Notes under the pieces: generated by a model
What the model saw: the letters and a program-made list of their open reading frames with translations, nothing else
What the model was told of the DNA's origin: nothing
The model's database searches: none
Shown here: piece by piece, positions 9,664 through 45,898 of the stretch
How positions within the stretch are numbered: position 1 is the first letter of the stretch
Layout: each line of letters begins with the position of its first letter
NCBI RefSeq assembly: GCF_020166345.1
Contig: NZ_JAIUJS010000009.1
Coordinates: forward strand, 1 to 64,000
Source: Winogradskyella vincentii
Lineage (GTDB): Bacteria > Bacteroidota > Bacteroidia > Flavobacteriales > Flavobacteriaceae
Length of the DNA: 64,000 bases
Reading direction: 5' to 3'
Made by a program: the position numbers and the translations under genes

Positions 9664-10968
9664 TTAATTCAATGCGGATTTATAAGTGGTTAAGCAACGT
9701 TCTCTAGCCATTTTATGATCTACCATTTTTTCTGGATATGTGAGTTCCTGAAATTCTGGCACCCATTTTTTTATGTATTCTAAATTCTTATCGAATTTTT
9801 GAATTTGTGACGTAGGATTAAATATTCTAAAATAAGGTGCTGCATCTACACCAGAACCTGCTACCCACTGCCAATTACCAATATTGCTTGCCATTTCATA
9901 ATCGTGTAACTTCTCTGCAAAATAAGCTTCGCCCCAACGCCAATCAATAAGTAGATGTTTGCACAAAAAACTACCAACCAGCATTCTAACGCGATTGTGC
10001 ATAAATCCAGTTTCATTTAGTTGTCGCATACCTGCATCAACCAATGGATAACCTGTTTTACCTTGGCACCATAATTTGAATTCATCTTCATTATTCCGCC
10101 ATTCAATCCTATCGTATTTAGGTTTAAAAGACTGATCTTTTGTATGAGGAAAATGCCATAATATTTGCATAAAAAATTCTCTCCAGATAAGCTCTTGCCA
10201 AAATATCTCGTTCTTTTCTTGTATGGCCTTATCAACCATTTTTCTTATACTTACAGTACCGAATCTTAGATGTGGTCCTAATCGAGATGTTGCATCTTTA
10301 GCCGGAAAGTTTCGTGTAGCTTCGTATTCTTGGATTAACCTTGGAGTGACCTCATAAGGTTTAATAGGTTGATTGGATCTTGTAAATCCTATATCCTCTA
10401 AACTTAAATTCGGAAGGTTAATGTTTTTTGCACAATTGTTTAGTTCTTTCTCAGACGGATAAAATTTAAAGTCGATGGTTTTAAATTTTTCCTTCCAGGT
10501 TCTCATGTAAGGTGTGTAGACCACATAGGGATTCCCGTCTTTTTTAACGACTTCATCCTTTTCGAATATGACTTGGTCTTTAAAAGTTTGAAATGCAATA
10601 TTTTGTGATTCTAATAGCGTTTTTAATTCAGCATCTCTTTCCGTTGCATAAGGTTCATAATCGTGATTGGTATAAACAGCCTTGATATTATAGGTTTCTA
10701 ATAACTGATTATATATCTCAATAGGTCTACCGTGATACATTGCGATACTACTACCAACGTCTTTTTGAAGTTGATCACTCAGATCTTGCAACGTGTCGTG
10801 AATGAAAGTAACACGAGCATCATCTTTTGGTAATTTTTCTAAAATTTCAGAATCGAAAATAAAAATGGGTAAAACATTTTGCCCACTTTTTAAGGCATTA
10901 TATAGTCCAACATTGTCGTCTAATCTAAGATCCCTTCTGAACCAAAATATACTTAAAGGTGTTTGCAT
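9664..10968 (-). CDS. Deoxyribodipyrimidine photolyase (class I CPD type)
   Basis: A 434-residue flavoprotein that repairs UV-made cyclobutane pyrimidine dimers using blue light. The N-terminal antenna (Rossmann) domain opens with IFWFRRDLRLDDN. The FAD domain has SRLGPHLRFGTVS (228-240), WREFF (262-266) and the class I core DYEMASNIGNWQW (356-368), then VDAAPYFRIFNP. The Asn in ASN (362) and W366 fit the flavin-contacting Asn and the electron-transfer Trp. It is the last gene of the packed block, 2 nt after the SRPBCC gene. Confidence 0.93.
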   Translation of the reverse strand: MQTPLSIFWFRRDLRLDDNVGLYNALKSGQNVLPIFIFDSEILEKLPKDDARVTFIHDTLQDLSDQLQKDVGSSIAMYHGRPIEIYNQLLETYNIKAVYTNHDYEPYATERDAELKTLLESQNIAFQTFKDQVIFEKDEVVKKDGNPYVVYTPYMRTWKEKFKTIDFKFYPSEKELNNCAKNINLPNLSLEDIGFTRSNQPIKPYEVTPRLIQEYEATRNFPAKDATSRLGPHLRFGTVSIRKMVDKAIQEKNEIFWQELIWREFFMQILWHFPHTKDQSFKPKYDRIEWRNNEDEFKLWCQGKTGYPLVDAGMRQLNETGFMHNRVRMLVGSFLCKHLLIDWRWGEAYFAEKLHDYEMASNIGNWQWVAGSGVDAAPYFRIFNPTSQIQKFDKNLEYIKKWVPEFQELTYPEKMVDHKMARERCLTTYKSALN

Positions 10969-10970
10969 TG

Positions 10971-11432
10971 TTAATAGGTGCCGAAAAGTTGTTCGAGTTG
11001 TTCCTTTCTATAGTTAAAAATACCTTCAAGTTTTGGTTTTACCAAAACTGGATGCAAAAGCCTACCAAGTATTCCAAAAGGAACTTTATAGTCAATAATA
11101 TCTTCCATTTCTACACCACCTTCTATTTCATGTACAAAATGTTTATGGTGCCAAAAGGCATAAGGACCATACAATTGTAGGTCAACAAAATACGTTTTGT
11201 TCTCGTATTGAGTGATTTCGCTCACCCATTTAGTTTTAAATCCTGGTATTGGCGTTACACTGTATTGTATTACTTGACCAGCATACATTGGTCTATCAGC
11301 ACCAGAAATAATTTTCATGTTCATTTCTTGAGGTGTCAACTTTGAAAGATTCGCAGGATTACACAAAAAAGCCCACGCTTCATCTAATGAAATAGGTAAT
11401 TTTTGTTTTTTATGTAAGGTATAGATTTTCAT
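10971..11432 (-). CDS. SRPBCC family protein
   Basis: A 153-residue protein of the START/Bet v1-like fold, starting KIYTLHKKQKLPISLDEAWAFLCNPANLSKLTP. A ligand cavity is expected but the ligand is unknown. Related proteins are often named cell division inhibitor without direct evidence. It is separated by 2 nt from tspO upstream and by 2 nt from the photolyase downstream, so it is surely in the same transcript. Pairing with a photolyase is a recurrent arrangement in flavobacteria. Confidence 0.8.
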   Translation of the reverse strand: MKIYTLHKKQKLPISLDEAWAFLCNPANLSKLTPQEMNMKIISGADRPMYAGQVIQYSVTPIPGFKTKWVSEITQYENKTYFVDLQLYGPYAFWHHKHFVHEIEGGVEMEDIIDYKVPFGILGRLLHPVLVKPKLEGIFNYRKEQLEQLFGTY

Positions 11433-11434
11433 TT

Positions 11435-11899
11435 CTAGTTATTCAAAACAACATAGCCGTTTAGAGATATTGCAATACAGAGCCATAAGATATATGGCAC
11501 AAGCAGAATTCTCATTTTGCTCAACTCATCATCACCAAAACTTATGAATAAATATATAATGACTAATGCTAATGCAATGAGATTAAAAAGGGCTATGCTC
11601 GTAAAATGTTGGTTAAAGAACAAATAATTCCAGCTTATATTAAGTAATAAAGAAATTATAAAGATAGTGGTTACAAAATTTGATTTCCTTAGATTAAATA
11701 AAAATGACAAATAGATTGAAAAGCAAATCATTATTACGGTCCAAACAACGCCAAAAACCCAACCTGGTGGAGTCCACGGTGCTTTATTAAGGTTTTTATA
11801 CCATATGCCATTGGCACCATCTCCCATGAAAATATTGCCGAGTGCCAGTCCACTAAAATTGATAATTAAAAATAATATGACATAATGGATTTGCTTCAA
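11435..11899 (-). CDS. tspO: TspO/MBR family tryptophan-rich sensory protein
   Basis: A 154-residue protein with five predicted membrane helices. The signature KAPWTPPGWVFGVVWTVIM is present in the second helix region and LLNISWNYLFFNQHF in the fourth. TspO proteins bind porphyrins and other tetrapyrroles and in some bacteria relay oxygen or light stress. In a photolyase operon a role in photosensitiser or porphyrin handling is plausible, but this is inference. Confidence 0.92.
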   Translation of the reverse strand: MKQIHYVILFLIINFSGLALGNIFMGDGANGIWYKNLNKAPWTPPGWVFGVVWTVIMICFSIYLSFLFNLRKSNFVTTIFIISLLLNISWNYLFFNQHFTSIALFNLIALALVIIYLFISFGDDELSKMRILLVPYILWLCIAISLNGYVVLNN

Positions 11900-12622: not shown

Positions 12623-13309
12623 TTAAAGTTTAAAGCTTACTATTCCACAATCCATTTCAAAAATTTGTCCTGATAAAGACGCAGCCTTATCAGATAATAA
12701 AAAGGCGGCCATATCAGCCACTTCTTGTGGTTGCAAATATTTTTTAAGCGGATGACGCTCATTCATGTTTTCTATCATTCGTTCATTACGCAATAGCTTA
12801 GAAGCCAAGTCCGTATCAGTTACCGTTGGTGCTATTGCATTAACTCGTATTGTAGGTGCTAATTCCGCTCCAAGAGATTTGGTAAGCCCTTCTACTGCTG
12901 ATTTTGAAGCTGCTACACTGGCATGAAATGGCATTCCTAATTTAGCTGCCACAGTACTAAATAATAATACTGACGGTTTGTTTCCGTTTTTAAGTGCTGG
13001 CAAATACTTTTGAATTGCCTTTACTGCTCCCAGAACGTTTATGTCAAAATCGTTCTTAAAATCATCAATACTTAAACGGTTTATAGGTTTAAGGTTGATA
13101 CTTCCAGGACAATAGACTAAGCCGTCAGCAGAATCAATTTCTGGTAATTCATCATTTAATATATCGCAATTATAATGTGTTAAATTACTTGCCGTTTGTT
13201 CTGGTGTGGTTCTACTGATGTTTACAACTTCATCATAAGAAGAAAGCAAAGATGAGACAATTGCATTGCCTATACCTTTGCTTCCTCCAATCACTATTAA
13301 TCTACTCAT
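12623..13309 (-). CDS. SDR family protein lacking the catalytic tyrosine
   Basis: A 228-residue Rossmann protein. VIGGSKGIG (6-14) is the NAD(P)-binding TGxxxGxG-type motif, and the C-terminal MAAFLLSDKAASLSGQIFEMDCG is typical of FabG-like SDRs. The active site is changed: the expected Tyr-x3-Lys is V132-A-A-S-K136, so the Tyr is missing, while Ser (near 118) and Lys136 remain. Reduced or altered catalysis is therefore likely. It sits between glutathione peroxidase and a 75-residue unknown, with 3-4 nt gaps. Confidence 0.85.
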   Translation of the reverse strand: MSRLIVIGGSKGIGNAIVSSLLSSYDEVVNISRTTPEQTASNLTHYNCDILNDELPEIDSADGLVYCPGSINLKPINRLSIDDFKNDFDINVLGAVKAIQKYLPALKNGNKPSVLLFSTVAAKLGMPFHASVAASKSAVEGLTKSLGAELAPTIRVNAIAPTVTDTDLASKLLRNERMIENMNERHPLKKYLQPQEVADMAAFLLSDKAASLSGQIFEMDCGIVSFKL

Positions 13310-13542: not shown

Positions 13543-14235
13543 CTAATTGTTTATATAATTTTGTAATTCTGAAATTTTCTCTGGTGTATTAAACTCTCCA
13601 CCATAATAGGTCGTAACTGTCGCAGATGTATCATCTTTAACACCTCTTGATGAAACACAAAGATGTTTGGCGTCAATTATAACAGCTACATCTTCTGTTT
13701 CTAAAACTGTTTTTAGTTCGTTGGCAATTTGATTAGTTAATCGCTCTTGAACTTGCGGACGTTTTGCATAGTACTGTACTATACGATTTAATTTGGACAA
13801 TCCAATAACCTTACCTGAAGACTTGTATGCTATATGTGCCTTGCCAATTATTGGTACAAAATGATGCTCGCAGTTTGAATAAAACGTTATGTTTTTTTCA
13901 ACTAGCATTTGGTTGTACTGGTATTTGTTGTCAAACAAAGCTACCTTTGGCTTATTCTCAGGATCTAAACCTGAAAATATTTCTTCAACATACATTTTTG
14001 CTACGCGATCTGGTGTGCCTTTTAATGAATCGTCCGTTAAATCTAAACCTAAGACGTCCATTATTTCTGAAAATAATATGGAAATTCGATTTTTCTTCTC
14101 GTTGTTAGACATATCAAAAGCATTAGCTTTCATTGGTGTCTCTAAACTTGTAAATAAATGGTCGTCTCCAATATCTTCATGGGTAAATCCATTAAGTTTA
14201 TGACCATTTTTTTGAGAAATTGTTTCTGTGTTCAT
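13543..14235 (-). CDS. folE: GTP cyclohydrolase I
   Basis: A 230-residue enzyme converting GTP to 7,8-dihydroneopterin triphosphate, the first step of folate and pterin synthesis. Zinc ligands are visible in YSNCEHHFVPIIGKAH (Cys and His) and KHLCVSSRG (second Cys). LSKLNRIVQYYAKRPQVQERLT is the conserved substrate helix. An N-terminal extension of about 45 residues is poorly conserved. Inside a photolyase operon it could supply the methenyl-THF or pterin antenna cofactor; that link is inference. Confidence 0.94.
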   Translation of the reverse strand: MNTETISQKNGHKLNGFTHEDIGDDHLFTSLETPMKANAFDMSNNEKKNRISILFSEIMDVLGLDLTDDSLKGTPDRVAKMYVEEIFSGLDPENKPKVALFDNKYQYNQMLVEKNITFYSNCEHHFVPIIGKAHIAYKSSGKVIGLSKLNRIVQYYAKRPQVQERLTNQIANELKTVLETEDVAVIIDAKHLCVSSRGVKDDTSATVTTYYGGEFNTPEKISELQNYINN

Positions 14236-14290: not shown

Positions 14291-14563
14291 TTATCGTTTT
14301 GAAATAGAGTTGTTTGTTATTGTTCTTTGACGCGAACATTTAAATCTGCCTTTGTCAAAGGTTCTTTTTTTACTGTGTTTTGTTGCTCTTCCTTGAACCC
14401 GTTCTCTCCACATTCTGAAACTGCTAGGTTTCATTTCTTTGCGCATCAGCTCAATGACTTCTTGTTCTTTTAAACCAAACTGAAATGTTATTGCTTCAAA
14501 AGGTGTTCTGTCTTCCCAAGCCATTTCAATTATGCGATCAATATCCTTTAATTCTAAATTCAT
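14291..14563 (-). CDS. TIGR03643/DUF2805 family protein
   Basis: A 90-residue basic protein. The N-terminal 65 residues (DIDRIIEMAWEDRTPFEAI, FGLKEQEVIELMRKEM, SSFRMWRERVQGR) form a helix-turn-helix-like fold typical of DUF2805. The tail is Arg/Lys-rich (KHSKKRTFDKGRFKCSRQR), which suggests nucleic-acid binding, not shown. Family members recur beside photolyase/cryptochrome genes. The start overlaps the preceding gene by 4 nt. Confidence 0.85.
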   Translation of the reverse strand: MNLELKDIDRIIEMAWEDRTPFEAITFQFGLKEQEVIELMRKEMKPSSFRMWRERVQGRATKHSKKRTFDKGRFKCSRQRTITNNSISKR

Positions 14564-14991
14564 ATAAATTCAGGCATCGCATATTGCATATCATACTTTA
14601 CTTTTTCATCTAACAGCTTATCAAAGAATTTTTTGTTCTCCTTGAAAGTTTTGCTATTTCTAAAATGGATAAAACGACCCTGGGCATGCAAACTAGAACC
14701 ATTTACTTTATAAATAACTAACTGATAGTATGGGATAATCCATTTAAAGTTTTTTAAACCTTGGTTAATCATTACTAAAATACCTTTAGGTCTGAGCTCA
14801 ATATTCGCATAATTAATATCAGACACCCTATTCATCATAGTCTGCATATTAGGGCTAACTTCGTCAATAATCATACGCTTTGAGCCTATACCTTTCATTT
14901 TCAATTTCTGTACCAAACTAAAGGAATCGCCTACTAAATCAGCGATAATCTGTTTATGGTCAGGATTATAATGTGTAGTATTTAGTATCAT
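14560..14991 (-). CDS. Conserved flavobacterial protein of unknown function
   Basis: 143 residues from the ATG at 14991. An upstream TTG at 15009 is in frame, but it overlaps the -7-like box TATATTTA (14999-15006), so 14991 is preferred. Soluble alpha/beta character with no known motif. Segments such as LVQKLKMKGIGSKRMIIDEV and KNFKWIIPYYQLVIYK are distinctive. It is the first gene after the internal operator at 15011-15040 and overlaps DUF2805 by 4 nt, so it heads a possible sub-operon that includes folE, tspO and the CPD photolyase. Confidence 0.7.
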   Translation of the reverse strand: MILNTTHYNPDHKQIIADLVGDSFSLVQKLKMKGIGSKRMIIDEVSPNMQTMMNRVSDINYANIELRPKGILVMINQGLKNFKWIIPYYQLVIYKVNGSSLHAQGRFIHFRNSKTFKENKKFFDKLLDEKVKYDMQYAMPEFI

Positions 14992-14998
14992 AACTATG

Positions 14999-15006
14999 TA
15001 AATATA
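14999..15006 (-). promoter_or_regulatory. Internal promoter -7-like box in the photoprotection block
   Basis: Minus-strand TATATTTA sits 4 nt after the operator half-site GTTAAACA and 7 nt before the ATG at 14991. The surrounding sequence closely parallels that in front of the TetR gene (TGTAnnTTTACAT in both). The transcript would be almost leaderless. Confidence 0.5.
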
Positions 15007-15010
15007 CAAA

Positions 15011-15040
15011 TGTTTAACCTTTTGGATGAATAGTTAAACA
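15011..15040. promoter_or_regulatory. Shared light-gene operator, copy 2 (internal promoter)
   Basis: TGTTTAAC (15011-15018) and GTTAAACA (15033-15040) are perfect inverted arms with a 14-base spacer. This is the same geometry as the copies before the TetR gene and between proteorhodopsin and blh. The spacer sequence is not conserved. Confidence 0.7.
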
Positions 15041-15091: not shown

Positions 15092-16582
15092 TTACTCATT
15101 ACGTAGCATTCGATTTCTGTCTTGTAGAGTATGTCGTTTTAAAATGCGAAAACTTTCTTTCACTACTTCAGGGTCTTCTTTCATATTCCAAAGAATTTCA
15201 CTGGCACGCTTGCGGTTTTCCTTAATATCGACAATAGGATATGGATAATCTTTACCCAATTTAAATTTGTATAAACCTTGTTCTAACTCGGTCATAAGAT
15301 AAGGCTCATGTATAAAAAGTATATCTAAATGGGCAAGTTCAGGAACCCATTTTTTTATGAAAACAGCATCTGGATCGTGTTTTAGGCTATTAACGGTTGG
15401 ATTATAAATTCTGAGATTATTTATACCAGTTTCACCTGCCTGCATTTGCAATTGCGGAAAGTGGATACCAGGTTCAAAATCTAAAAATTGTTGCGAAAGA
15501 TGGGCAGAGGCATCTTGCCATGGTTGCCATAAAATATGTGTAAAGAACGAAACCAACATAGCACGCATCCTGAAATTAACATAGCCCGTTTCTACGAGAC
15601 AGCGCATACTTGCATCTACCAGTGGAAAGCCAGTTTGTCCTTCACGCCAAGCCTTTTGGTAATCTTCTGATATGCTTTTCTTAAGTTTATGATAGCCTTT
15701 GTTAACGCTTGCATTTTCCATGATATGTTCCATTTCAAACTTCTGAATGAAATGAGCTTGCCAACGTAATCGTGATAAAAACGCACCAATGTGGCGTTTA
15801 TCTGAAGTCTTATTTTTTAGTTCTTGACCTTTTTGAAATATTTGACGAATGGAAACATTTCCCCAAGCAATGTAAGGTGATAATCTACTACAACTACTTC
15901 TTGATGCTTCTGGTTTAGAAATATTGAACATGTAATCTTCATGCCTGTCCTCAAAGAAAGATTTGGCATATTTCCAGGCCATTGTACTTCCGCCTTTTTG
16001 AAATGGCGTGTCTTTAGGTGTTCTAAGATCAGTTTCTTTTAATACACTCTCTAATTCTAAAATTCTATCAATAGAAAGTAATTGACTCTGCTTTGGTTGA
16101 AATACTTCTTGAGGTTGATACATGTAGCTTTCCCAGTTTTCAAACCAATTATCGCGATTTACCAAACCACGTTCAACACCATTATTTTTAGATTCTTTCC
16201 AATTTATAAGGTTATTTCTACAGTAACGCGTAATTTCTTTATCTCTGTTATAGGTTACGAGTAATCCGGTTTCAACATGAGAATATATCGTATCAATTTT
16301 ATAGAATTCTTGAATGATATTGAAAGTGCTCTGTATGTCATTTATAACTGCTAAAACCTTGGTGTTATATGGCTTAAGTTGGTCATTGATATCTCTAATT
16401 GATTCCTTTATAAAATTAAAGTGTCGTTCACTGTAATGCCCATCATTTAAAAGAATGTGCTCAAAAACATAGAGTAGAAGTGTAGGTTTACCACTTTTTA
16501 GGGCATTGGAAATGGCTTCGTTATCTTGAAGTCTCAAATCGCGTTTTAACCAAACTACATTTATTCGTTTTTTGCCAGCCAT
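15092..16582 (-). CDS. Cryptochrome/photolyase family flavoprotein
   Basis: 496 residues with the two-domain photolyase plan. [14 protein letters not shown] (10-23) opens the antenna domain. [18 protein letters not shown] and the FAD-region segments [33 protein letters not shown] and [18 protein letters not shown] follow. It is longer and more divergent than the CPD photolyase at 9664. Whether it repairs DNA or signals cannot be read from motifs alone. It directly abuts the PhrB-like gene (0 nt), with the operator region downstream. Confidence 0.85.
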
Positions 16583-18052
16583 TTACAATTGTGATAAGAA
16601 AGATTCAGCATTTTTAAAGTGCTTTTCTTTAGTTTCTTGTTTCATTTTATCGAATGTCCTTATTAACATCCCTAACCTAGGATTGCTTAAAAAGAATTCA
16701 CGATGTTTATCCATAAAAGTCCAAAAGAGCCCATCCCAAGTTGCTTGCCAATCACCTTTAGTATAGTTACTCATTTTCATAATGTAGTTGCTACTGCTTA
16801 TGTAGGGTTTGGTAGACATGAGTCCACCATCTGCATACAAGCTCATACCGTAAACGTTTGGTACCATAACCCAATCGTAAGCATCTATAAATAGTTCCAT
16901 AAACCATTTGTACACTTCGTCTGGATGGAACTCGCACAACACCATAAAATTGCCAAGAACCATAAGACGTTCTATGTGATGTGCATAAGCGGTTTTATTT
17001 ACTTTCTTTATAACATCGTCAATAGGTTGTATGCCAGTTGTTCCATCATAAAAGGACTTAGGAATTTTTCTATCGAAATTCCAAAAGTTCTTAGTGCGTT
17101 CTTCGGTACCTTTTACTTGGTAAACACCTCGAATAAATTCACGCCAACCTAAAATTTGGCGTACAAAGCCTTCTGTTGAATTTAGAGGCACATCATTGGA
17201 CTTGGCATAGTTAATTGCTTTATCTATGACGTCTAATGGATGCATTAGACCTACATTAATTAATGGCGACAGCAAGCTGTGATTTAAAAAATGTTCCTCT
17301 TTAACAATAGCATCTTCATAAGCTCCAAACTCGTGAAATCGATACTCAAAAAATTGTTGTAACCATTCTTCAGCAGATTCAAAATCAATAGGATAATTGA
17401 TAAAATCATTCAATTCACCATAGTGGTCATTAAAGTTTTTCTCTACATAAGAAATTGCTTCTTTGTGATATTTTGATAAATCAGGAAACTGAATACTTGG
17501 TGGTGTTTTATCCTTGGGATATTTCTTGCGGTTTTCAGAGTCATAGGTTAGTTTTCCGCCTTCTGGCTGGTCATTAACCATGAGTATGTCTCGATCTTTA
17601 CGTTGTTGCTTGTAAAACGAGGTTTGAAAAAATTTCTTTTTTGAAGGTTTAAAGAAACAACTTAATTCGTCCTTGGTGTTTATAAACAGCGGATTCTCGT
17701 ACCATTCTACAGCTATTGATTCAGAAGCAGATTTTATATGTTTCTCTAACCAGTTATCGGTTGGGTCAATTATATGAAGCGTTTCAAGACCTTTATCAAT
17801 TAACTCAGGAATCAATTCTCTGACATCAGATGTCTCTGAAGTAGCCTCAATATAATTTACGGAAAGCCCTTTGTCTGTTAAAAAGTCGGAATAAGCTTTC
17901 ATTGATGCTCTGTGAAATGCAATTTTTTGCTTGTGGAATTTGTAATGCGAAAAGAACAAAAACTCTTCAACCAAATAAATATCACAATCTAAGTTTAAAA
18001 TTTGTGAATCCTTAAACAACTGATGTGGAAATATGAGTGTGGCTTCTTTCAT
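16583..18052 (-). CDS. PhrB-like (FeS-BCP/CryPro) photolyase lacking the Fe-S cysteines
   Basis: 489 residues of the deoxyribodipyrimidine photolyase-related group, whose characterised members repair (6-4) photoproducts. ATLIFPHQLF opens the N-terminal domain. TAYAHHIERLMVLGNFM (354-370) and AYDWVMVPNVYGMS (391-404), then STKPYISSSNYIMKMS, are the FAD-domain signatures. Known members bind [4Fe-4S] through four Cys in this region. This protein has only three Cys in total (23, 132, 373), and the expected positions are P343, S419/S421-422 and Q436. The cluster therefore appears absent. Confidence 0.87.
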   Translation of the reverse strand: MKEATLIFPHQLFKDSQILNLDCDIYLVEEFLFFSHYKFHKQKIAFHRASMKAYSDFLTDKGLSVNYIEATSETSDVRELIPELIDKGLETLHIIDPTDNWLEKHIKSASESIAVEWYENPLFINTKDELSCFFKPSKKKFFQTSFYKQQRKDRDILMVNDQPEGGKLTYDSENRKKYPKDKTPPSIQFPDLSKYHKEAISYVEKNFNDHYGELNDFINYPIDFESAEEWLQQFFEYRFHEFGAYEDAIVKEEHFLNHSLLSPLINVGLMHPLDVIDKAINYAKSNDVPLNSTEGFVRQILGWREFIRGVYQVKGTEERTKNFWNFDRKIPKSFYDGTTGIQPIDDVIKKVNKTAYAHHIERLMVLGNFMVLCEFHPDEVYKWFMELFIDAYDWVMVPNVYGMSLYADGGLMSTKPYISSSNYIMKMSNYTKGDWQATWDGLFWTFMDKHREFFLSNPRLGMLIRTFDKMKQETKEKHFKNAESFLSQL

Positions 18053-18461: not shown

Positions 18462-19769
18462 TTAATTAAACAAGCTAGGTTGTAACCAAATGTTTCTAAA
18501 TCTACCATTAGCATCATAGCGCTCTGCTTGCAGTTGTACATTAAACTTTCTGTCCCTAGGATCATTACCAACACCTGCGACATACATCCAATTACCATAA
18601 TTGCTGTGTACGTCATAATCTAAGAGTAAGGACTCAAAATAAGAAGCACCTATACGCCAATCTAACTCTAGTTCTTTAGCGAAATAAGAGGCAACATTTT
18701 GCCGTCCTCTGTTGCTCATCCAACCTGTTTCCTTTAACTCAATCATATTGGCATTTACAAAGTCCGATTGTGTTTCACCATTGATCCATTTTTGTATTTG
18801 GTTTTGATTTGTGGACCATTCATAATCTTTTTGAAGTATGCCTTCTAGTTTAAAGATTTGGTTACCGTGTTTTAGCGACACATATTTAAAATAGTCGCGC
18901 CAAATCAACTCAAAAATGAGCCAGTAGGTCGATTGGTTTTTAAAATGTTCTTTCTCAAACTGTTTAACCTTCCAATAGATGGTTCGTGCAGAAATACTAC
19001 CATTGGCCAGCCAAGGTGAAAACTTAGAGCTATAATCAACACCAACTAAACCATTTCTGGTTTTCTTATAAAATCCTAGTTTCTTGGTGTTAAAGAAGTA
19101 ATCGTTAAGTCGATTTATAGCTTCTGTTTCGCCACCTTTAAAAGGAAAGGCAGAATTAGGATGGGATTTAAAGTCTGCAAAACCTAATTCTGATAAACTT
19201 GGTATGCTGGTATTGTTTTCAATCCTGTTATTCTGACTTTGTTTTGTTATTCGCGATTCCTCTCGTATATCGATATATTTTTCGAGTTTCTTTCTAAATA
19301 CTGTAAAGACTTGAGGTGTTTTAGAAATATCAAAATTGATATCCTCAGGATGATATAAAAACTGGTTGTAAATGTGATGCCAGTTGATATGTGTAGTTTG
19401 AGCTTTCACCGCATTTTCTGTATCAACTTCCTCTTGAGTCCATTCATTTTGTATGTAGATATCAGTTATTTGATGTGCTTCACAAATTTTAGGAATTGCG
19501 TTTTCCGGAAAGTCATGGTATACCAACAGGTCTATATTTAGTGCTTCGAGCTGGGCTTTAAGATTATGAATAGTTTCAATTAAAAACTGAGCACGGTATT
19601 TTTCAATCTTTTTAAAACCAAATCTGTTCTTTTCAAAATGCCTCGGATCAAAACAATAAAGTCCAATAACCTTTTCTGCTTGTTTACTGGCTTCAGTCAA
19701 CACAGTATTATCTATTGTTCTAAGGTCATTTCTAAACCAAACTAAGCTATACTTTTCTGTCTTCTGCAT
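18462..19769 (-). CDS. DASH-type cryptochrome
   Basis: 435 residues. [20 protein letters not shown] opens the antenna domain, and the CRY-DASH features YCFDPRHF and [18 protein letters not shown] follow. The FAD domain includes [41 protein letters not shown] and [26 protein letters not shown] proteins bind FAD and MTHF and repair CPDs mainly in single-stranded DNA, with possible signalling roles. The start lies inside the end of the DUF2256 gene (28-nt overlap). Confidence 0.93.
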
Positions 19770-19888
19770 TTTTCACTACAATATTTTACGTTTTCCCAGT
19801 CTTTCTCCCATTTTTTACGCCAAGTAAATGGTCGCTTGCAAACAGGGCATATTTTTTCTGGTAGGTGTTGTTTTTTTACACCTCTCAT
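19742..19888 (-). CDS. DUF2256 zinc-ribbon-like small protein
   Basis: A 48-residue frame, [17 protein letters not shown]..., with the full DUF2256 signature: [18 protein letters not shown] followed by VKYCSEKC. Four Cys in CxxC...CxxxC spacing suggest a zinc ribbon. It overlaps the upstream SDR gene by 4 nt (ATGA) and the DASH cryptochrome start by 28 nt. DUF2256 is often found beside or fused to photolyase-related genes, and its role is unknown. Confidence 0.9.
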
Positions 19889-21306
19889 TTTGGTTCAACT
19901 AAGGCGTTAATCATTCCTTTAAATACAAAAGCGTGAAACGGTAAAACCATGTACCAATACAATCTTCCCCAAACACCTTTTGGTCTAAAAACAGCACGCT
20001 GATATAACTTGTCTTTTACAATTTTAAATTCTAACCAAGCCTCGCCTGGTAGTTTCATTTCAGCAAATAATAGAAGTCTTTTTTCTTTTTTATCAGCAAA
20101 TAACACACGCCAGAAATCGAGTGGATCACCAGCTTCTAAATAAGTATCATGCGTTCTGCCTCGTCGCAATCCTACACCACCAAATAATTTATCGACATAA
20201 CCTCTGAGCTTCCATAAAGTATTGAAACTATACCAGCCATTTCGCCCGCCAATTCCCCAAATCTGATTCAGTGTAAATTCCTCATCTATAATAGTCTTAG
20301 AGCGAACATCTTTAAAACAGCCATACTGTGGTAATTCTATATGTTTAGATAGTTGATCTTTAAAAACGCCACTACTTACGGCATCCTTCCAACTAGAAAT
20401 TACAGAATTTTGCTGAATGCGCTGAAACGCCAAGTCTACAGCCTTTTTATAGGTCATGGGTTGGATACTAATATGATTATTGATATCACTTGGTTTGCCA
20501 ATGACTTCAACCTTCATACTGTCTACTAATGCTTGTGCTAACTGAAATGATGTTGAGGTTACAAAATAAAGCCAGTAGGATGAGAGCTTTGGTGTCAAAA
20601 CTGGTAAAGTATAAATATACCTCTTCAGACCTCTTACTTCAGCAAACTGTAATAACATTTCCTTATAGGTCAGTATTTCAGGTCCGAAAATATCATAAGA
20701 GTTATTGTAAAGCGCTTCCTTTCCTAGGGCACCTGATAAATAGGTCAGGACGTCTCTAATACCTAAAGGTTGTGTTTTGGTATTTAGCCACTTTGGTGTA
20801 ATCATCACCGGTAGTTTTTCAACAATATCTCTGATGATTTCGAAAGAAGCACTTCCGCTACCAACAATAATGCCTGCTCTGAATGTTGTTAGTGCATATT
20901 TCTCTGATTTAAGGGTTTCTTCTACCTGTAATCTAGATTTTAGATGTTTAGATAATGAATCATCATTAACAATACCGCTCAGATAAATGACTTGCTCACA
21001 ATCTGTAGCTTCAACTAAATTTTTAAAATTTTGTGCACATTGACGTTCTAAATCCTCAAAATCATCAGCATCAGTAGCCATGGAATGAATTAGGTAATAG
21101 GCAACATCGATGTCTTTTGGAATTTTGTTGGGTTCTGGACTTAGAAAATCTATTTTTATGAAAGAGCACAATGGATGCTCAGCTATTTCATCTGGAATAC
21201 GATTAATATCACGGACACAACAGATAAGTTCGTGCTTGTCTTCTAATAACTGTAAAGCTAGTCTCTTGGCTATATAGCCTGTTGTACCTGTAATTAGTAT
21301 TTTCAT
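19885..21306 (-). CDS. NAD(P)-binding SDR-like protein with DUF2867 domain
   Basis: 473 residues. The N-terminal extended-SDR fold begins [19 protein letters not shown] (GxTGYIA dinucleotide motif) and includes AYYLIHSM and VIYLSGIV. The C-terminal third (from about 330) is a DUF2867-type helix-grip domain ([29 protein letters not shown], then [16 protein letters not shown]). The reaction is unknown. It overlaps DUF2256 by 4 nt and is preceded by the REPIN-like element. Confidence 0.87.
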
Positions 21307-21444: not shown

Positions 21445-22077
21445 TTATTTTTCAGTAAATTCTGGCTTTGGGCGTTGGTATTCTAATCGTTTTTTTAGCT
21501 CAGGCACTGCATAACCATCTAGTCCGTTAATAGTCGCAACCTTGCCCTTTGATAAGTTAATAAAACCATCCTTTTCTAGCAAGTTATCAGGAACATAAAG
21601 TTTTTCGATTTGCCCAATAAGTAAAATAGTATTGTTGGCTTTAATGGGATACTCTTCAACATAGCTCATGGCTAATTGGATTGGACATCCTTTTACAAAT
21701 GGCGCAATAAAATCGTCCTTGTATTCTTCAATTAAGGACGTTACATCAAATTCTGATATAGACGGATCATACTTTGCAGATGTATGGTGTGCATCTTCTA
21801 AAATACCATCATGTATATGGTTGAGCGTATATTTACCTGTCGTTTTGATGTTATCATAGGTGTTACGAATGACTGTTGTAGGTCTTAAAAAAAAACCTAA
21901 TAAACCAGGATTGGAGCCTAAATGTGTTATAGAACTGAATACAGCAACATTACTCGTACCGGCACTATCCTTTGTGCCGATGAGGTTTGCAGATTTATAC
22001 CCAGAACAACTATTAATTAAGTTGATTCTATATAAATGGTGCATTTGGTTGATATCATCTAAACTAAATTCAGCCAT
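21445..22077 (-). CDS. Flavin reductase-like FMN-binding protein
   Basis: A 210-residue split-barrel protein. SGYKSANLIGTKDSAGTSNVAVFSS and HLGSNPGLLGFFLRPTTVIRNTYDNI are the FMN-binding segments of flavin reductase-like families. It may bind or reduce FMN with NAD(P)H. In a flavoprotein-rich operon a role in flavin supply is plausible, but not shown. It is 1 nt from the ABC1 kinase gene upstream. Confidence 0.85.
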   Translation of the reverse strand: MAEFSLDDINQMHHLYRINLINSCSGYKSANLIGTKDSAGTSNVAVFSSITHLGSNPGLLGFFLRPTTVIRNTYDNIKTTGKYTLNHIHDGILEDAHHTSAKYDPSISEFDVTSLIEEYKDDFIAPFVKGCPIQLAMSYVEEYPIKANNTILLIGQIEKLYVPDNLLEKDGFINLSKGKVATINGLDGYAVPELKKRLEYQRPKPEFTEK

Positions 22078-22078
22078 C

Positions 22079-23389
22079 TTATAGGTTTATGAAGTTGTTG
22101 ATTTTAATATTCTCAGCTTTAAGATCGAACATCAAGTTATATAAACCGAAGAATGTTCTGTTGATGTATATAAAGTGAGTTGAACCTCTATTACCATTCA
22201 TATTGCGTAGTTCAGTACTTTTTGAGTATTTCTGACCCATTTCACCAACTTTATTGAAAAACTCTGGATCTGAAAAATCAAAAGTTTCATTATGAAATGG
22301 TTGGGTGAATAGGCTTAATAGCTCATGGAACATGGAGGTAAAGAAGTCTATTTCTTCTTTTGAATCGTCATGTCTTAAAATCTCGAGCTCGTACATTTTT
22401 TCAGTAAAAGCTTTAGGATTGTCAATGCATTCTTTTTGAGCTAATTCAAAATAGGGTTTGTAAAACTCATCTGGTATAGCTTTCATGCATCCAAAATCTA
22501 GTGCAATTAAATTACCTTCTTCTGATATTAAGAAATTCCCAGGATGTGGATCCGCATGGACTTTCTTCAAGATATGAATTTGATACATGTAGAAATCCCA
22601 AAGTGCTTGACCTAGTTTATTTGACAATTCTTGGTTGTTATTTTGAGTTACAAATTCCGAAAGGTGTTTACCTTCCATATAATCCATAGTAATTATCCTT
22701 TCTGAGGATAAACTCTCATAATATTGTGGAAATTTTAGATTTGGAATGTGCTTGCAAGCTTCCACCACTTCCTTACTCTGATTTAACTCAAGAAGATAAT
22801 TGGTTTCTTCAATAAGTTTATTTTCAACCTCTTTGAAGTACTTATCAGAATCCTTTCCTTTTATATTAAACATCTTTATGGCTATAGGTTTAACTAAGGC
22901 CAAATCAGAAACGATACTCTCCGCAACTCCAGGATATTGGATTTTCACAGCAAATTTTTTCCCATTCTTATCTGCAATATGGACTTGTCCAATGCTTGCA
23001 GCATTGACTGAAGTTGCGTTGAAAGTATCAAATAGTTCTTCGGGATGTTTTCCGAAATATTTTTTAAATGTTTTTATAACCAAAGGTGGCGATAGTGGCG
23101 GTACAGAAAATTGAGATAAAGAAAACTTCTCAACATAAGCTTGAGGTAATATGCTTTTTTCCATGCTAAGCATCTGAGCTACTTTAAGTGCACTTCCTTT
23201 TAATTTTTTAAGGCTGTCATAAATATCATCTGCATTATTCTGATTAAGGCGTTCTTTGGCATCTTCTTTAGAATTAACCATTTTATCTCCATAATACTTG
23301 AGATAATTAACACCAACCTTTGCGCCAGTTGAAACGAGTTTTGAGGCTCTTGAAATTTTAGTAATAGGTATACTATCTATGGTCTTCAT
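22079..23389 (-). CDS. ABC1/UbiB (AarF) family atypical kinase-like protein
   Basis: 436 residues. The family KxGQ-like segment is KLKGSALKVAQMLSME (about 62-77). The ATP-binding Lys is in KKFAVKIQYPGV. The catalytic part is KKVHADPHPGNFLIS, and LIALDFGCMK gives the metal-binding DFG. Members support ubiquinone or isoprenoid lipid homeostasis and stress tolerance. Here it is adjacent (0-1 nt) to the TetR and flavin reductase genes. The substrate is unknown. Confidence 0.9.
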   Translation of the reverse strand: MKTIDSIPITKISRASKLVSTGAKVGVNYLKYYGDKMVNSKEDAKERLNQNNADDIYDSLKKLKGSALKVAQMLSMEKSILPQAYVEKFSLSQFSVPPLSPPLVIKTFKKYFGKHPEELFDTFNATSVNAASIGQVHIADKNGKKFAVKIQYPGVAESIVSDLALVKPIAIKMFNIKGKDSDKYFKEVENKLIEETNYLLELNQSKEVVEACKHIPNLKFPQYYESLSSERIITMDYMEGKHLSEFVTQNNNQELSNKLGQALWDFYMYQIHILKKVHADPHPGNFLISEEGNLIALDFGCMKAIPDEFYKPYFELAQKECIDNPKAFTEKMYELEILRHDDSKEEIDFFTSMFHELLSLFTQPFHNETFDFSDPEFFNKVGEMGQKYSKSTELRNMNGNRGSTHFIYINRTFFGLYNLMFDLKAENIKINNFINL

Positions 23390-24046
23390 TTAATTGGCGT
23401 GCATTTTTTCCTTATACAAAAATTTACCTAGATCTATAAGACCTTTAAAAGAGGTTGTGTCTATAAAATCAAAACTTGCTTTCACAGATTTCTCAATGAA
23501 AAGATCAGTTTTTTCAAATCCAGAAGACGTATCGTCTAGCCAGAATTTCATTGTAACTAACAATTGCAACCAAGCAGTTTCTGTGATGCTTTTATTTTGA
23601 ATGTTATCTAGCTGTTCTTGCTTTATATCAAATTTGCTAATGTTTAGATGCTCAATGTAGTTTATGAATCTTTGCTTTAGCCTGGCTAGTACTTTAATAG
23701 TTTTTAATTGGTTTTTACAATCATCTAAAACATGCACAACATAGCTTCTGTTAGCCGTTAGAATTTCAAAAAAGGTATAATAAAAGCTTAATAATTTATT
23801 TCTGGAATCAAATGTTAGATAGTCTTCGCTTTTTTCTAAAACCTCATGTGCGTTATCAAAAAACACTTTAAACACACATTGCTCTAGAGTCTCGAATGAA
23901 CTAAAATGTTCATAGAACTTTTGCTCTTCAAAATTGTTGGTTTTAGCAAACGCATAGATGGACTTGGGTTGCTCGCCATAGGTTAGCACGTGGTCCATAT
24001 AAAATCCAATAATATCTGATTCTGTAATTGTTTTTTTCTTTGCCAT
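23390..24046 (-). CDS. TetR/AcrR-type transcriptional regulator
   Basis: 218 residues. The N-terminal 60 residues (ESDIIGFYMDHVLTYGEQPKSIYAFAKTNNFEEQKFYEHFSSFETL) fit a TetR-type HTH, where the recognition helix region KFYEHF replaces the usual LYYHF. The rest is helical ligand-binding or dimer domain. It is the 5'-most gene of the photoprotection block and touches the ABC1 gene. The operator-like inverted repeat at 24078-24107 lies about 30 nt upstream, so auto- and block regulation is a fair hypothesis. Confidence 0.8.
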   Translation of the reverse strand: MAKKKTITESDIIGFYMDHVLTYGEQPKSIYAFAKTNNFEEQKFYEHFSSFETLEQCVFKVFFDNAHEVLEKSEDYLTFDSRNKLLSFYYTFFEILTANRSYVVHVLDDCKNQLKTIKVLARLKQRFINYIEHLNISKFDIKQEQLDNIQNKSITETAWLQLLVTMKFWLDDTSSGFEKTDLFIEKSVKASFDFIDTTSFKGLIDLGKFLYKEKMHAN

Positions 24047-24077
24047 TGTTTTTCTATTACAATGTAAAGGTACAGAA

Positions 24078-24107
24078 TGTTTAACGATAAAATATAAAAG
24101 TTAAACA
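24078..24107. promoter_or_regulatory. Shared light-gene operator, copy 1 (TetR promoter)
   Basis: TGTTTAAC (24078-24085) and GTTAAACA (24100-24107) with a 14-base spacer. A third half-site, GTTTAAC, follows at 24110-24116 and makes GTTAAAC-AAA-GTTTAAC. On the minus strand the arm is followed after 5 nt by TACCTTTA, a -7-like box for the TetR gene. Confidence 0.7.
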
Positions 24108-44180: not shown

Positions 44181-44921
44181 TTATGCTGCTTCAGCTGATG
44201 ATGTAGCACTAACTGCCAATCCATAAATTACTAAGCCAAAGCCTATTTTGTTTACGGCATCACCGATATTGTAGATAACATCCATGTTTAGGCCTAGATT
44301 TGCCAATCCATCATACCAACCTGGTGTACCTGCCATGTAACCAAGTGGGTAAATTGCCCAACCAACAAGTACAAACCAACATAATGTTTTGTGCGCACTC
44401 AATACTGCTCCACCGGCTTGTTCTGCCAATTTCTTTGCTTCTCCAAACCAAATAATGTACGCTATTACAAAATACGCTATACCAGATAATAGACCCCAGA
44501 ACCATGCTTGGTCTCTGTAAATAGCTTCTCCAAAATATCCTGTAACCAACATTACCACAGACCAAAATATTAATTTCCACATTAGTGATTTCTTCGCACC
44601 TGCTACTTTAAGTATTAGATAGAATTCAACACACATGAGTGGGACTGTTAGTACCCAATCTACATATCTAAAAAAGGTTGGTGATTCTGCATGCGCAGCC
44701 CAATAATCTCTCATGTACCAATAGTGCACTGCTGCAATAAAAGTAATTAATCCTGACACCAGGATAGAAGTTCTCCATTTTCTATCAAAACTATTCATTG
44801 ATAAAAAGAAAAAGGCCGAAGCGGCCATCATGGCCATACATCCTACAAAGAATGTAAAACCTACATAGTCATCTGTAGCTATTTTGCTTACATCGGCTAG
44901 TAAAATGGTTAGTAATTTCAT
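44181..44921 (-). CDS. Green-type proteorhodopsin proton pump
   Basis: 246 residues, seven helices. Counting by alignment to the SAR86 protein: H66 (=H75), counter-ion D88 (=D97), T92 (=T101), tuning M96 (=105) and proton donor E99 (=E108) in RYVDWVLTVPLMCVEF, and the retinal Lys is K225 (=K231) in DAVNKIGFGL. The DTE triad means an outward H+ pump. Met at the tuning site fits green absorption, usual in flavobacteria. Retinal is supplied by the divergent blh gene. Two shared operators lie upstream. Confidence 0.95.
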   Translation of the reverse strand: MKLLTILLADVSKIATDDYVGFTFFVGCMAMMAASAFFFLSMNSFDRKWRTSILVSGLITFIAAVHYWYMRDYWAAHAESPTFFRYVDWVLTVPLMCVEFYLILKVAGAKKSLMWKLIFWSVVMLVTGYFGEAIYRDQAWFWGLLSGIAYFVIAYIIWFGEAKKLAEQAGGAVLSAHKTLCWFVLVGWAIYPLGYMAGTPGWYDGLANLGLNMDVIYNIGDAVNKIGFGLVIYGLAVSATSSAEAA

Positions 44922-44934
44922 ATTTCAATTTATT

Positions 44935-44964
44935 TGTTTAAGCAAAATTAAAAATAGTTAAACA
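44935..44964. promoter_or_regulatory. Shared light-gene operator, copy 3 (proteorhodopsin side)
   Basis: TGTTTAAG (44935-44942) and GTTAAACA (44957-44964) with a 14-base spacer. Minus-strand TAATTTTG (44943-44950), a -7 candidate for proteorhodopsin, lies in the spacer, so binding would cover the promoter. Confidence 0.65.
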
Positions 44965-44969
44965 AAAAA

Positions 44970-44999
44970 TGTTTAAAATTTTCATAAAAAAATTAAACA
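44970..44999. promoter_or_regulatory. Shared light-gene operator, copy 4 (blh side)
   Basis: TGTTTAAA (44970-44977) and ATTAAACA (44992-44999) with a 14-base spacer, 5 nt from copy 3. The blh -7 box TACCTTTG begins 14 nt further. Confidence 0.65.
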
Positions 45000-45013
45000 A
45001 AATGAAATTTGAA

Positions 45014-45021
45014 TACCTTTG
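45014..45021 (+). promoter_or_regulatory. -7 box of blh
   Basis: TACCTTTG, 4 nt before the GTG at 45026. No TTTG at the -33 position, where an operator half-site sits instead, so an activator may be needed. Confidence 0.5.
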
Positions 45022-45025
45022 CATC

Positions 45026-45898
45026 GTGAAATCTTCAATTTTTAGGCTTTTTTTAACTGTTTTCCTGCTCTGGTTTACCTTACGAATAAATTTTAAGTTC
45101 GAATCGTATTTGGCTTATGGTTTAATATTAACAGTTGGAATTTTTCATGGTTCAAACGATATATCACTTATCCGATTTCTTAAGAAAGGCTCATCTTCGC
45201 ATATCGTAAAATATTTGGTTTTCTATGTTTTATTGGTATTATTAACATGCGTTGTATTCATAAACTTACCCTTTATCGCCTTATTGTTATTTGTTGCATT
45301 TAGTTGTTATCATTTTGGAGAACAACATTTCCATAGCCAACTTAGTCACCAAAACTTAATAGGGCAAATACTGTTTTTTGGTTATGGTGCTCTGATTTTT
45401 GGACTTTTATTTTATTTTAATCACGAAGCAACAAGTGTTGTAATTTTTGAACTATCTGGTGTTAATCTTGCCGAGGTTCATTATCTATTATTTCTAATAC
45501 TAGGTGTTATTATAACTGGTGTTTCCGTATTTCTTAATAGAAGAAACTTTGACAAAGAGGTTGAATTTTTTAGAGAAATATTTTTGTTACTACTTTTTGC
45601 ACTTTTATTTAAAGTTGCTTCTTTGCTATGGGCATTTGCTATTTATTTTATAGTTTGGCATTCAATCCCATCGCTTATAGACCAAATTGAATCATTGCAT
45701 GGACAACTGAATTCTAAGAACCTATTTGAATACATTAAATCCTCAATTATTTATTGGCTGATTTCTGTTGTAGGTCTGGTCTTTGTTTATTATTTGTCTA
45801 AGAGTCTAAACATTCAATTTATCACCTTGTTTTTTGCTTTTTTAGCGGCTATTACAATACCGCATGTCATTGTGATGTACTATCTCAATAAGAATTAA
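45026..45898 (+). CDS. blh: Brp/Blh-family beta-carotene 15,15'-dioxygenase
   Basis: 290 residues from GTG 45026. A longer frame from 44969 would place the -7 box inside the gene. Multi-helix membrane protein with His-rich metal sites IFHGSNDISL, CYHFGEQHFHSQ, FIVWHSIPSL and ITIPHVIVMYYL. It cleaves beta-carotene to two retinals, the proteorhodopsin chromophore. It is divergent from proteorhodopsin with four operator half-sites between them. No carotenoid synthesis genes lie in this window. Confidence 0.92.
   Translation: MKSSIFRLFLTVFLLWFTLRINFKFESYLAYGLILTVGIFHGSNDISLIRFLKKGSSSHIVKYLVFYVLLVLLTCVVFINLPFIALLLFVAFSCYHFGEQHFHSQLSHQNLIGQILFFGYGALIFGLLFYFNHEATSVVIFELSGVNLAEVHYLLFLILGVIITGVSVFLNRRNFDKEVEFFREIFLLLLFALLFKVASLLWAFAIYFIVWHSIPSLIDQIESLHGQLNSKNLFEYIKSSIIYWLISVVGLVFVYYLSKSLNIQFITLFFAFLAAITIPHVIVMYYLNKN

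Follow-up and report, generated by a model that had tools for sequence, protein, structure and literature searches.

An inverted two-turn operator shared by proteorhodopsin, blh and photolyase genes in Flavobacteriaceae, and a CarH-type B12-binding protein as its probable regulator

Operators of the proteorhodopsin and photolyase region

The window analysed here, a 64-kb stretch of the Winogradskyella vincentii genome, carries a proteorhodopsin gene (44181..44921, minus strand; PF01036, E 1.8e-39) and, on the opposite strand, blh, which encodes a beta-carotene 15,15'-dioxygenase (44969..45898, plus strand; PF15461, E 8.2e-39; start uncertain). Two exact copies of one operator stand at these genes. 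Operator 1 (44935..44964), upstream of proteorhodopsin and kept in orthologous promoters, contains the proteorhodopsin -7 element TAATTTTG (44943..44950, minus strand), which was assigned by reading the sequence and from a logo of 30 promoters that has TAnnTTT there, and operator 2 (44970..44999) lies 35 bp from it at the blh promoter. The in-frame starts of blh are ATG 44969, ATG 45002 and GTG 45026. Because the longest ORF begins only one base before operator 2, and a -7-like TACCTTTG is found around 45015 (window 44969-45030), the true start may lie further downstream, ATG 45002 and GTG 45026 being the next candidates.

Operators 3 and 4 head two consecutive transcription units, whose genes include four of the photolyase/cryptochrome family as well as FolE, TspO and a flavin reductase. 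Operator 3 (24078..24107), an exact match kept in all 30 best-matching orthologues, lies upstream of a TetR-like gene (23390..24046, minus strand) at the head of the first photorepair unit, and the -7 element of that gene, TACCTTTA (24065..24072, minus strand; sequence reading and logo), is just downstream of the operator. The gene product is a TetR-fold protein with a match to PF17931 (TetR_C_23), no TetR_N match and weak TetR-fold matches. Behind it, likewise on the minus strand, come an ABC1/COQ8-type kinase (22079..23389; PF03109), a flavin reductase-like protein (21445..22077; PF01613), an NAD-binding/DUF2867 protein (19885..21306; PF11066), a DASH-type cryptochrome/photolyase (18462..19769; TIGR02765, 498.7 bits, above the cut-off), a photolyase-related protein (DPRP; 16583..18052; PF04244) and a photolyase/cryptochrome family protein (15092..16582; PF03441). 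Operator 4 (15011..15040), also exact, is upstream of the second unit and precedes homologues of the same gene in four other loci (L023, L038, L042, L075). This first gene (14560..15009, minus strand; likely start ATG 14990) gave no family match in family profile searches; after it, on the same strand, come FolE, GTP cyclohydrolase I (13543..14235; PF01227), a short-chain dehydrogenase (12623..13309; PF13561), a TspO/MBR family protein (11435..11899; PF03073) and a deoxyribodipyrimidine photolyase (9664..10968; PF00875/PF03441).

The original prediction had placed four copies of a single inverted site at these genes, and a pattern search returned all four, exact, at the positions given above. 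From the 16 occurrences of TGTTTAA in the window and the 15 of TTAAACA, chance would yield 0.004 exact pairs at any one gap, against the four TGTTTAA-N16-TTAAACA copies seen. That the 64 kb hold no other copy was likewise borne out, for 0 or 1 mismatch, by a search that allowed three; the 2 hits with 2 mismatches and the 19 with 3 are about what chance would give (25 in total, against 21.3 expected). Both arms contain TnnACA, in inverted orientation, and in 11-bp registers (site positions 0-10 and 21-31) the arm centres are 21 bp apart, which corresponds to two turns of DNA. A conserved third half-site in the middle of the spacer was sought by eye in the promoter logos, where none stood out. 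The whole genome has 8 exact copies, 4 of them inside the window, and no exact copy of the reversed pattern used as a control. The 4 copies outside the window are near a fasciclin protein, an 86-aa protein, a GLPGLI protein and a small ORF, and their link to light is not obvious. A small ORF of 62 aa begins about 60 bp after the site both in this genome (L001, downstream of 1530) and in a relative (L016), the two looking alike by eye.

The sites had further been proposed to overlap or replace -33 elements, which proved only partly right. At the proteorhodopsin, crtI and fasciclin promoters the operator instead contains the -7 element, the logos having TAnnTTT(G) at the end of the spacer, and at the TetR-like gene it stands just upstream of a -7 element that is found 5 bases after the right arm. 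At carH, the gene discussed below, TAnnTTTG overlaps the left arm. A fixed replacement of the -33 element by the left arm was considered and set aside: no more than about 13 bases separate the TTTG that precedes the arm from the -7 element (logo, by eye), so that this TTTG is not a canonical -33.

Conservation and targets in the Bacteroidia

Exact copies are present in all 60 genomes of the genus sample and in 170 of the 199 genomes of the family (Flavobacteriaceae) sample, where 665 sites compare with 27 for the reversed-pattern control. Of another 190 genomes, from the class but not from the family, 100 carry one or more exact sites (176 sites, against 18 of the reversed pattern). When exact arms were paired at gaps of 6-30 in relatives, gap 16 made up 31 of the 75 pairs listed (112 in all), and other gaps at most 6 each.

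Proteorhodopsin promoters were compared in two overlapping sets. The first took in the family genomes with a proteorhodopsin match, 41 in all, less one with a partial gene; in 31 of the resulting 40 loci, a site with no more than 2 mismatches lies in the 110 bp or so upstream. The 9 promoters without one are those of G094, G135, G212, G193, G074, G129, G110, G097 and G203, of which G203 is without a CarH homologue (see below) and the other 8 have a close one; those of G212, G074 and G110 have a 3-mismatch site at the usual place. The second set was the best 80 of 550 proteorhodopsin loci in named records (the closest among the matches listed being that of Winogradskyella algicola, at 92% identity), from which one locus with too short an upstream region was dropped. 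In the remaining 79 promoters a site is present with at most 2 mismatches in 77, with at most 1 in 71 and exactly in 44, the corresponding rates in dinucleotide shuffles being 2.5%, 0.2% and 0.01%; with 1 mismatch allowed, 71 promoters have arms at gap 16, and each of the other gaps between 8 and 25 occurs in 0-5. Paired sites, as at proteorhodopsin and blh here, are 34/35 bp apart in 28 cases and 45/46 bp in 13, two classes that differ by one helical turn, with one overlapping case at 10. The proteorhodopsin promoters thus keep both the arms and the spacing, and a loss of either from orthologous light promoters, an outcome named beforehand as counting against a shared operator, did not appear. 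Because this second set holds the best-scoring loci, and the carH and TetR-like loci used below are likewise the best-scoring matches, one each from 30 of the 184 and 30 of the 146 genomes with a match, rates may be lower for remote orthologues.

It might be argued that the pattern is an AT-rich promoter element or a chance palindrome that has no dedicated regulator, flavobacterial promoters being AT-rich and the arms touching TAnnTTTG elements, but the excess over the reversed pattern in the family, the 77 of 79 promoters and the strong preference for gap 16 all speak against it, barring a flaw in the controls, and we regard it as scarcely credible.

For a survey of targets, 60 family loci, each with one listed site per genome and chosen irrespective of gene function, were sorted by the gene downstream. 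Fasciclin-domain proteins come first with 17 loci, followed by the TetR-like protein (11), homologues of the first gene of the second unit, orf15009 (4), GLPGLI proteins (4), proteorhodopsin/blh (3), crtI (2), the 86-aa protein (2) and homologues of the gene at 10971-11432 of the window, whose product we take to be of SRPBCC type (2). DUF2867, TspO, MsrA-like and mevalonate-kinase-like genes follow with 1 each, the last two assigned by eye, and the other 11 loci have another gene or none. The sites gather at this small recurrent gene set, and an equal frequency of the pattern upstream of unrelated genes, which would have spoken against the regulon, did not appear. The set is broader than light harvesting and photorepair. 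The family scan and the orthologous promoters argue strongly for the shared regulon of energy capture and photorepair that had been proposed; the idea that all of its members are light genes holds in so far as proteorhodopsin, blh and the photolyase units share the operator, but genes without a known light link are also included.

The commonest target in the survey is the fasciclin-domain protein (for example L002:1581-2579). AstaP is a carotenoid-binding fasciclin protein of microalgae (PMC10147662), and a link between the two is only a lead.

In members of the class that belong to other families, an ECF sigma factor gene lies within 130 bp downstream of the site in 14 of 30 loci (L192, L195, L201, L204, L205, L208-L211, L214, L215, L217, L218 and L220; genes of 160-190 aa), identified by blastp to one of them, with 5 of the 14 scanned with Pfam. 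Blastp found no such gene at any of the 60 sampled Flavobacteriaceae loci. Other targets outside the family are a carH homologue (2 loci; helix RIWEQRY or RIWEKRY, with Wx9EH), folE, crtZ, fasciclin, PTPS and DUF4397 genes and a proteorhodopsin at 56% identity, and 2 of the 30 sites lie inside ORFs. An operator before an ECF sigma factor gene resembles LitR-LitS of Streptomyces and CarQ of Myxococcus; unlike those systems, the 60 Flavobacteriaceae sites are without such a gene, and their targets seem to be controlled directly. A possible history is one in which control passes through a sigma factor cascade in other Bacteroidia and would be direct in Flavobacteriaceae.

A CarH-type protein as candidate regulator

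Two regulators had been put forward for the sites, the TetR-type protein encoded at 23390 and, as an alternative, a LitR/CarH-type MerR protein encoded outside the window. The W. vincentii genome holds three MerR_1 matches (profile search), and it encodes a CarH-type protein of 300 aa (C44:21006) with MerR (PF13411, E 1.4e-15) and B12-binding_2 domains, the gene for which, carH, heads a run of crtI-, crtB- and crtZ-type genes outside the window. Genes for tRNA-Lys and tRNA-Leu lie just upstream of carH (L014:1118-1330, G000:C44). The presence of exact sites follows that of a close homologue of this protein, which favours the second candidate: sites occur in 164 of the 167 family genomes with a close CarH, in 6 of the 17 with only a distant one and in 0 of the 15 with none, where the cut between close and distant was placed after the E-values were seen, in the gap from 5e-62 to 5e-49, and where the genomes share ancestry and are not independent. 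Three genomes (G074, G129 and G169) have a close CarH yet no exact site.

If the TetR-type protein bound the sites and controlled a regulon that included itself, one would understand why the site stands 59-81 bp upstream of its gene in all 30 best-matching orthologues, and the predicted model of the protein does weakly match TetR regulators (best E 2e-3). Sites are also found in 137 of 146 genomes with a TetR homologue against 33 of 53 without. This correlation, however, vanishes once CarH is accounted for, since sites are present in 31 of the 32 genomes that have a close CarH and lack a TetR homologue, but in only 4 of the 11 that have a TetR homologue and lack a close CarH; the protein, moreover, has no TetR_N domain at E up to 10, and a change in the operator tracks the recognition helix of CarH, as described below. 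The TetR-like protein is therefore, as judged from these genome comparisons, a conserved target and not the regulator, and the contrary reading strikes us as very improbable.

The TetR-like gene directly precedes that of the ABC1/COQ8-type kinase (window 22079-24046), and besides the TetR_C_23 match its product has a weak one to COQ9, below the cut-off. The protein may be a lipid-binding partner of the kinase rather than a DNA-binding regulator. Identity with COQ9 itself is doubtful, the Pfam COQ9 score being 14.3 against a cut-off of 20.5 and COQ9 being unnamed among the 50 Foldseek hits listed. MliR, a flavobacterial MerR protein, was rejected as a regulator of the sites: its published description is of iron regulation, with no B12 or light role in the part seen (PMC9478572).

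Two motifs, Wx9EH and ExHxxG, are marks of CarH, the first of which sets B12-dependent CarH apart from CarA (PMC9304148). Both are present in 30 of 30 best-matching orthologues of the flavobacterial protein, the second (D/ExHx2G/P) with the lower axial histidine, and the recognition helix RIWEKRY is invariant in 24 aligned orthologues and differs by one conservative R-to-K change from the RxWERRY of CarH. For the rest of the B12 motif (SxT/V ... GG), the consensus read by eye has the S and T, shifted, and a single G. A His after the Trp of Wx9EH is found in many, not all, CarH proteins and is the upper ligand in light-exposed T. thermophilus CarH (PMC9304148); at this place (position 144) none of the 30 orthologues (L111-L140) has His, 29 having Gln and 1 Leu, and since this residue caps the cobalt, the light state may differ chemically. 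An AlphaFold2 model of the protein (mean pLDDT 86.4) finds T. thermophilus CarH at Foldseek ranks 1-12 (E 5e-13 to 1e-9), with a TM to target of up to 0.83 for the B12 domain alone, and the values over the whole chain (TM 0.49-0.66, rmsd 9-15) show that the domain packing differs from that of T. thermophilus CarH. A cobalamin adenosyltransferase gene is present in the genome. Because the protein scores 67.1 bits with the NCBIfam CarH equivalog NF052513, under the 400-bit cut-off, and lacks the His after Trp, we call it CarH-type and do not place it in the narrow NCBIfam family.

The missing His and the GG that is not evident by eye would suit a protein that binds the sites but answers to a signal other than light through B12, be it in the manner of the B12-independent CarA or of class II LitR, which in Pseudomonas acts via a partner photoreceptor (PMC9758184), or to some other cue; with Wx9EH and ExHxxG intact throughout and the adenosyltransferase gene present, we consider this unlikely. 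Going by its motifs and its model, the flavobacterial protein has the build of CarH and very probably functions in the same way, and a CarH-type B12-binding MerR protein is very probably the regulator of the operator.

The genomes with only a distant homologue mostly have a second CarH-like clade in which the helix is for the most part RKWE[ST]RY (Lys type) in place of RIWEKRY. A variant operator, TGTCTAA-N16-TTAGACA (C-type, as opposed to the T-type above), was first seen near two genes of this clade, was set as a prediction, and was then searched for in all 199 genomes. It occurs in 11 of them: 7 of the 17 whose only homologue is distant (among them G202 and G188, the two genomes that prompted the prediction), 0 of the 15 with none and 4 of the 167 with a close CarH. 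In three of these last four (G062, G075, G156) the site is inside an ORF, as chance would place it, and the fourth, G169, also has a Lys-type protein. The other C-type sites are upstream of homologues of carH, fasciclin, crtI, TetR-like, ABC1, PTPS and 75-aa protein genes.

Twenty TetR-like promoters, chosen for the CarH class of the genome, were then compared. Among the Lys-type genomes, G090 has an exact C-type site at -61 and G092 has C-type arms with gap 17 (by eye); the promoter of G169, a genome with a Val and a Lys protein, combines an arm of each type, that of G239 stands 2 mismatches away from both types, the promoters of G104 and G237 (no CarH) have no site, and those of G078 and G247, whose homologue is distant but has Ile, have exact T-type sites. 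Against a co-change of protein and operator, this promoter has no site in G070 and G188 (Lys), in G063 (Ile), in G199 or in G178 (close CarH), and in G123 it has only a 2-mismatch site at -114. Five of the 11 Lys-type genomes tabulated (G246, G070, G092, G081, G251) have no exact C-type site, and a single T-type site is found in each of G188, G081 and G251, also of the Lys type, against a total of about 1.5 predicted by the control rate. The reading of the helix covered genomes other than G134, G199 and G239. We read the comparison as a whole to mean that a diverged CarH clade, in whose recognition helix Lys replaces Ile, is accompanied by an altered operator at genes of the same set.

The carH gene is itself accompanied by sites. 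In W. vincentii a 2-mismatch site overlaps its start codon, and each of the 30 best-matching carH loci has at least one site with at most 2 mismatches, before carH in 23 and past the end of the carH match in 24, where it lies 14-34 bp beyond that end; in L074 and L079 such a site is followed by crtI. At 22 loci the distance from the beginning of the site to the start codon is exactly 23 bp, and the right arm is ATGAACA (21) or GTGAACA (1), both of which retain TnnACA. The second codon is AAC in all 22, and elsewhere in the 30 genes AAC accounts for 237 of 695 Asn codons, an argument that is only suggestive because 6 of the 8 carH genes without a start-codon site also use AAC; the left arms of these six look decayed by eye. 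The two genes with AAT are those of L131, where the ATG is immediately preceded by an exact site, and L120, where a similar sequence with one mismatch and gap 17 occupies that place.

Proposed light control and its relation to known systems

It is highly likely, in our judgement, that the operator is the site of a flavobacterial CarH-type MerR repressor with a B12 light-sensing domain, acting in the dark and released in the light. In the dark, an AdoCbl-bound CarH-type oligomer would occupy both inverted TnnACA half-sites, which lie on the same side of the helix two turns apart, and would block RNA polymerase, the operator covering or abutting the core promoter. Light would break the cobalamin bond and free the protein from the DNA, and proteorhodopsin, blh, the carotenoid genes, the photolyase and pterin units, the fasciclin-domain protein and carH would be switched on together. 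As background, a 2011 study by Kimura on Dokdonia MED134 is reported to have found proteorhodopsin, retinal genes, cryptochrome and photolyase up in light. That the operator covers the -7 element of the proteorhodopsin, crtI and fasciclin genes indicates dark repression, and its varied placement over the core promoter fits repression by blocking of the polymerase. Many classical MerR proteins are activators, and the CarH-type protein could act as one here, but an operator that lies around the -7 element, upstream of it or over a start codon fits steric repression, not an activator of MerR type with its fixed geometry, so that an activator seems to us distinctly improbable. For the CarH-type repressor, it is from the computed operator, its conservation and targets, its dependence on the carH gene, the co-change and the CarH-like domains that we infer direct binding, repression, B12 dependence and light release, and release through B12 would hold by analogy with the protein family.

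The known CarH operators have the half-site nnnnTnnACAn in tandem 11-bp direct repeats, and one head-to-tail dimer of T. thermophilus CarH contacts repeats 1 and 3, about two turns apart (PMC9304148). An inverted pair of arms would suit the two-fold symmetry of such a dimer. With CarH of Thermus thermophilus, Bacillus megaterium and myxobacteria the flavobacterial system shares the MerR domain with R-x-W-E-K/R-R-Y, the B12 domain with Wx9EH and ExHxxG, the half-site TnnACA, sites at crt genes and carH, and an operator that overlaps the promoter (PMC9304148). It differs from CarH as described there in that the arms are inverted and not tandem 11-bp repeats, in the Gln that stands in place of His after Trp, and in a regulon that includes proteorhodopsin, blh, the fasciclin protein and the photolyase units. 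Class II LitR of Pseudomonas (PplR/PmlR) is similar in its light-induced photolyase, cryptochrome, folE and short-chain dehydrogenase and in its two spaced half-sites, there TGTACA-N12-TGTACA; in contrast to the CarH-type protein, it keeps one of two B12-binding domains and answers to a LOV protein, its half-site and spacing are different, and no rhodopsin is among the regulon genes named in that source (PMC9758184).

CarH-type light control of crt genes (PMC9304148) and LitR control of photolyase and folE (PMC9758184) are already known. What appears to be new, so far as the literature was searched, is the regulon with proteorhodopsin and blh, the inverted two-turn operator, the operator at the carH start codon and the co-change of Ile/Lys with T/C; the search found no title or abstract opening that describes the flavobacterial regulon, within a coverage that leaves out most subscription journals. 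Riedel et al. (2013) found the main sigma consensus before proteorhodopsin in one Dokdonia strain and not in two others, and called for further work on flavobacterial proteorhodopsin regulation (PMC3587595). That regulation has been open in print, and an operator, a likely regulator, a likely signal and a gene set can now be named for it.

We lean towards the full combination of claims, namely that a CarH-type B12 light sensor gates proteorhodopsin phototrophy in Flavobacteriaceae, that the regulon extends across Bacteroidia through the inverted two-turn operator, that Ile or Lys in the helix sets T or C in the operator, and that the same operator drives an ECF sigma factor outside the family. 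Most of these cells must import vitamin B12. If the combination is true, the Ile/Lys proteins and their sites would be a naturally occurring pair of protein and operator specificities, one switch would serve energy capture, the supply of retinal and carotenoids, and DNA repair, and phototrophy in these bacteria would depend on both light and vitamin B12, which would tie a widespread form of marine phototrophy to that vitamin.
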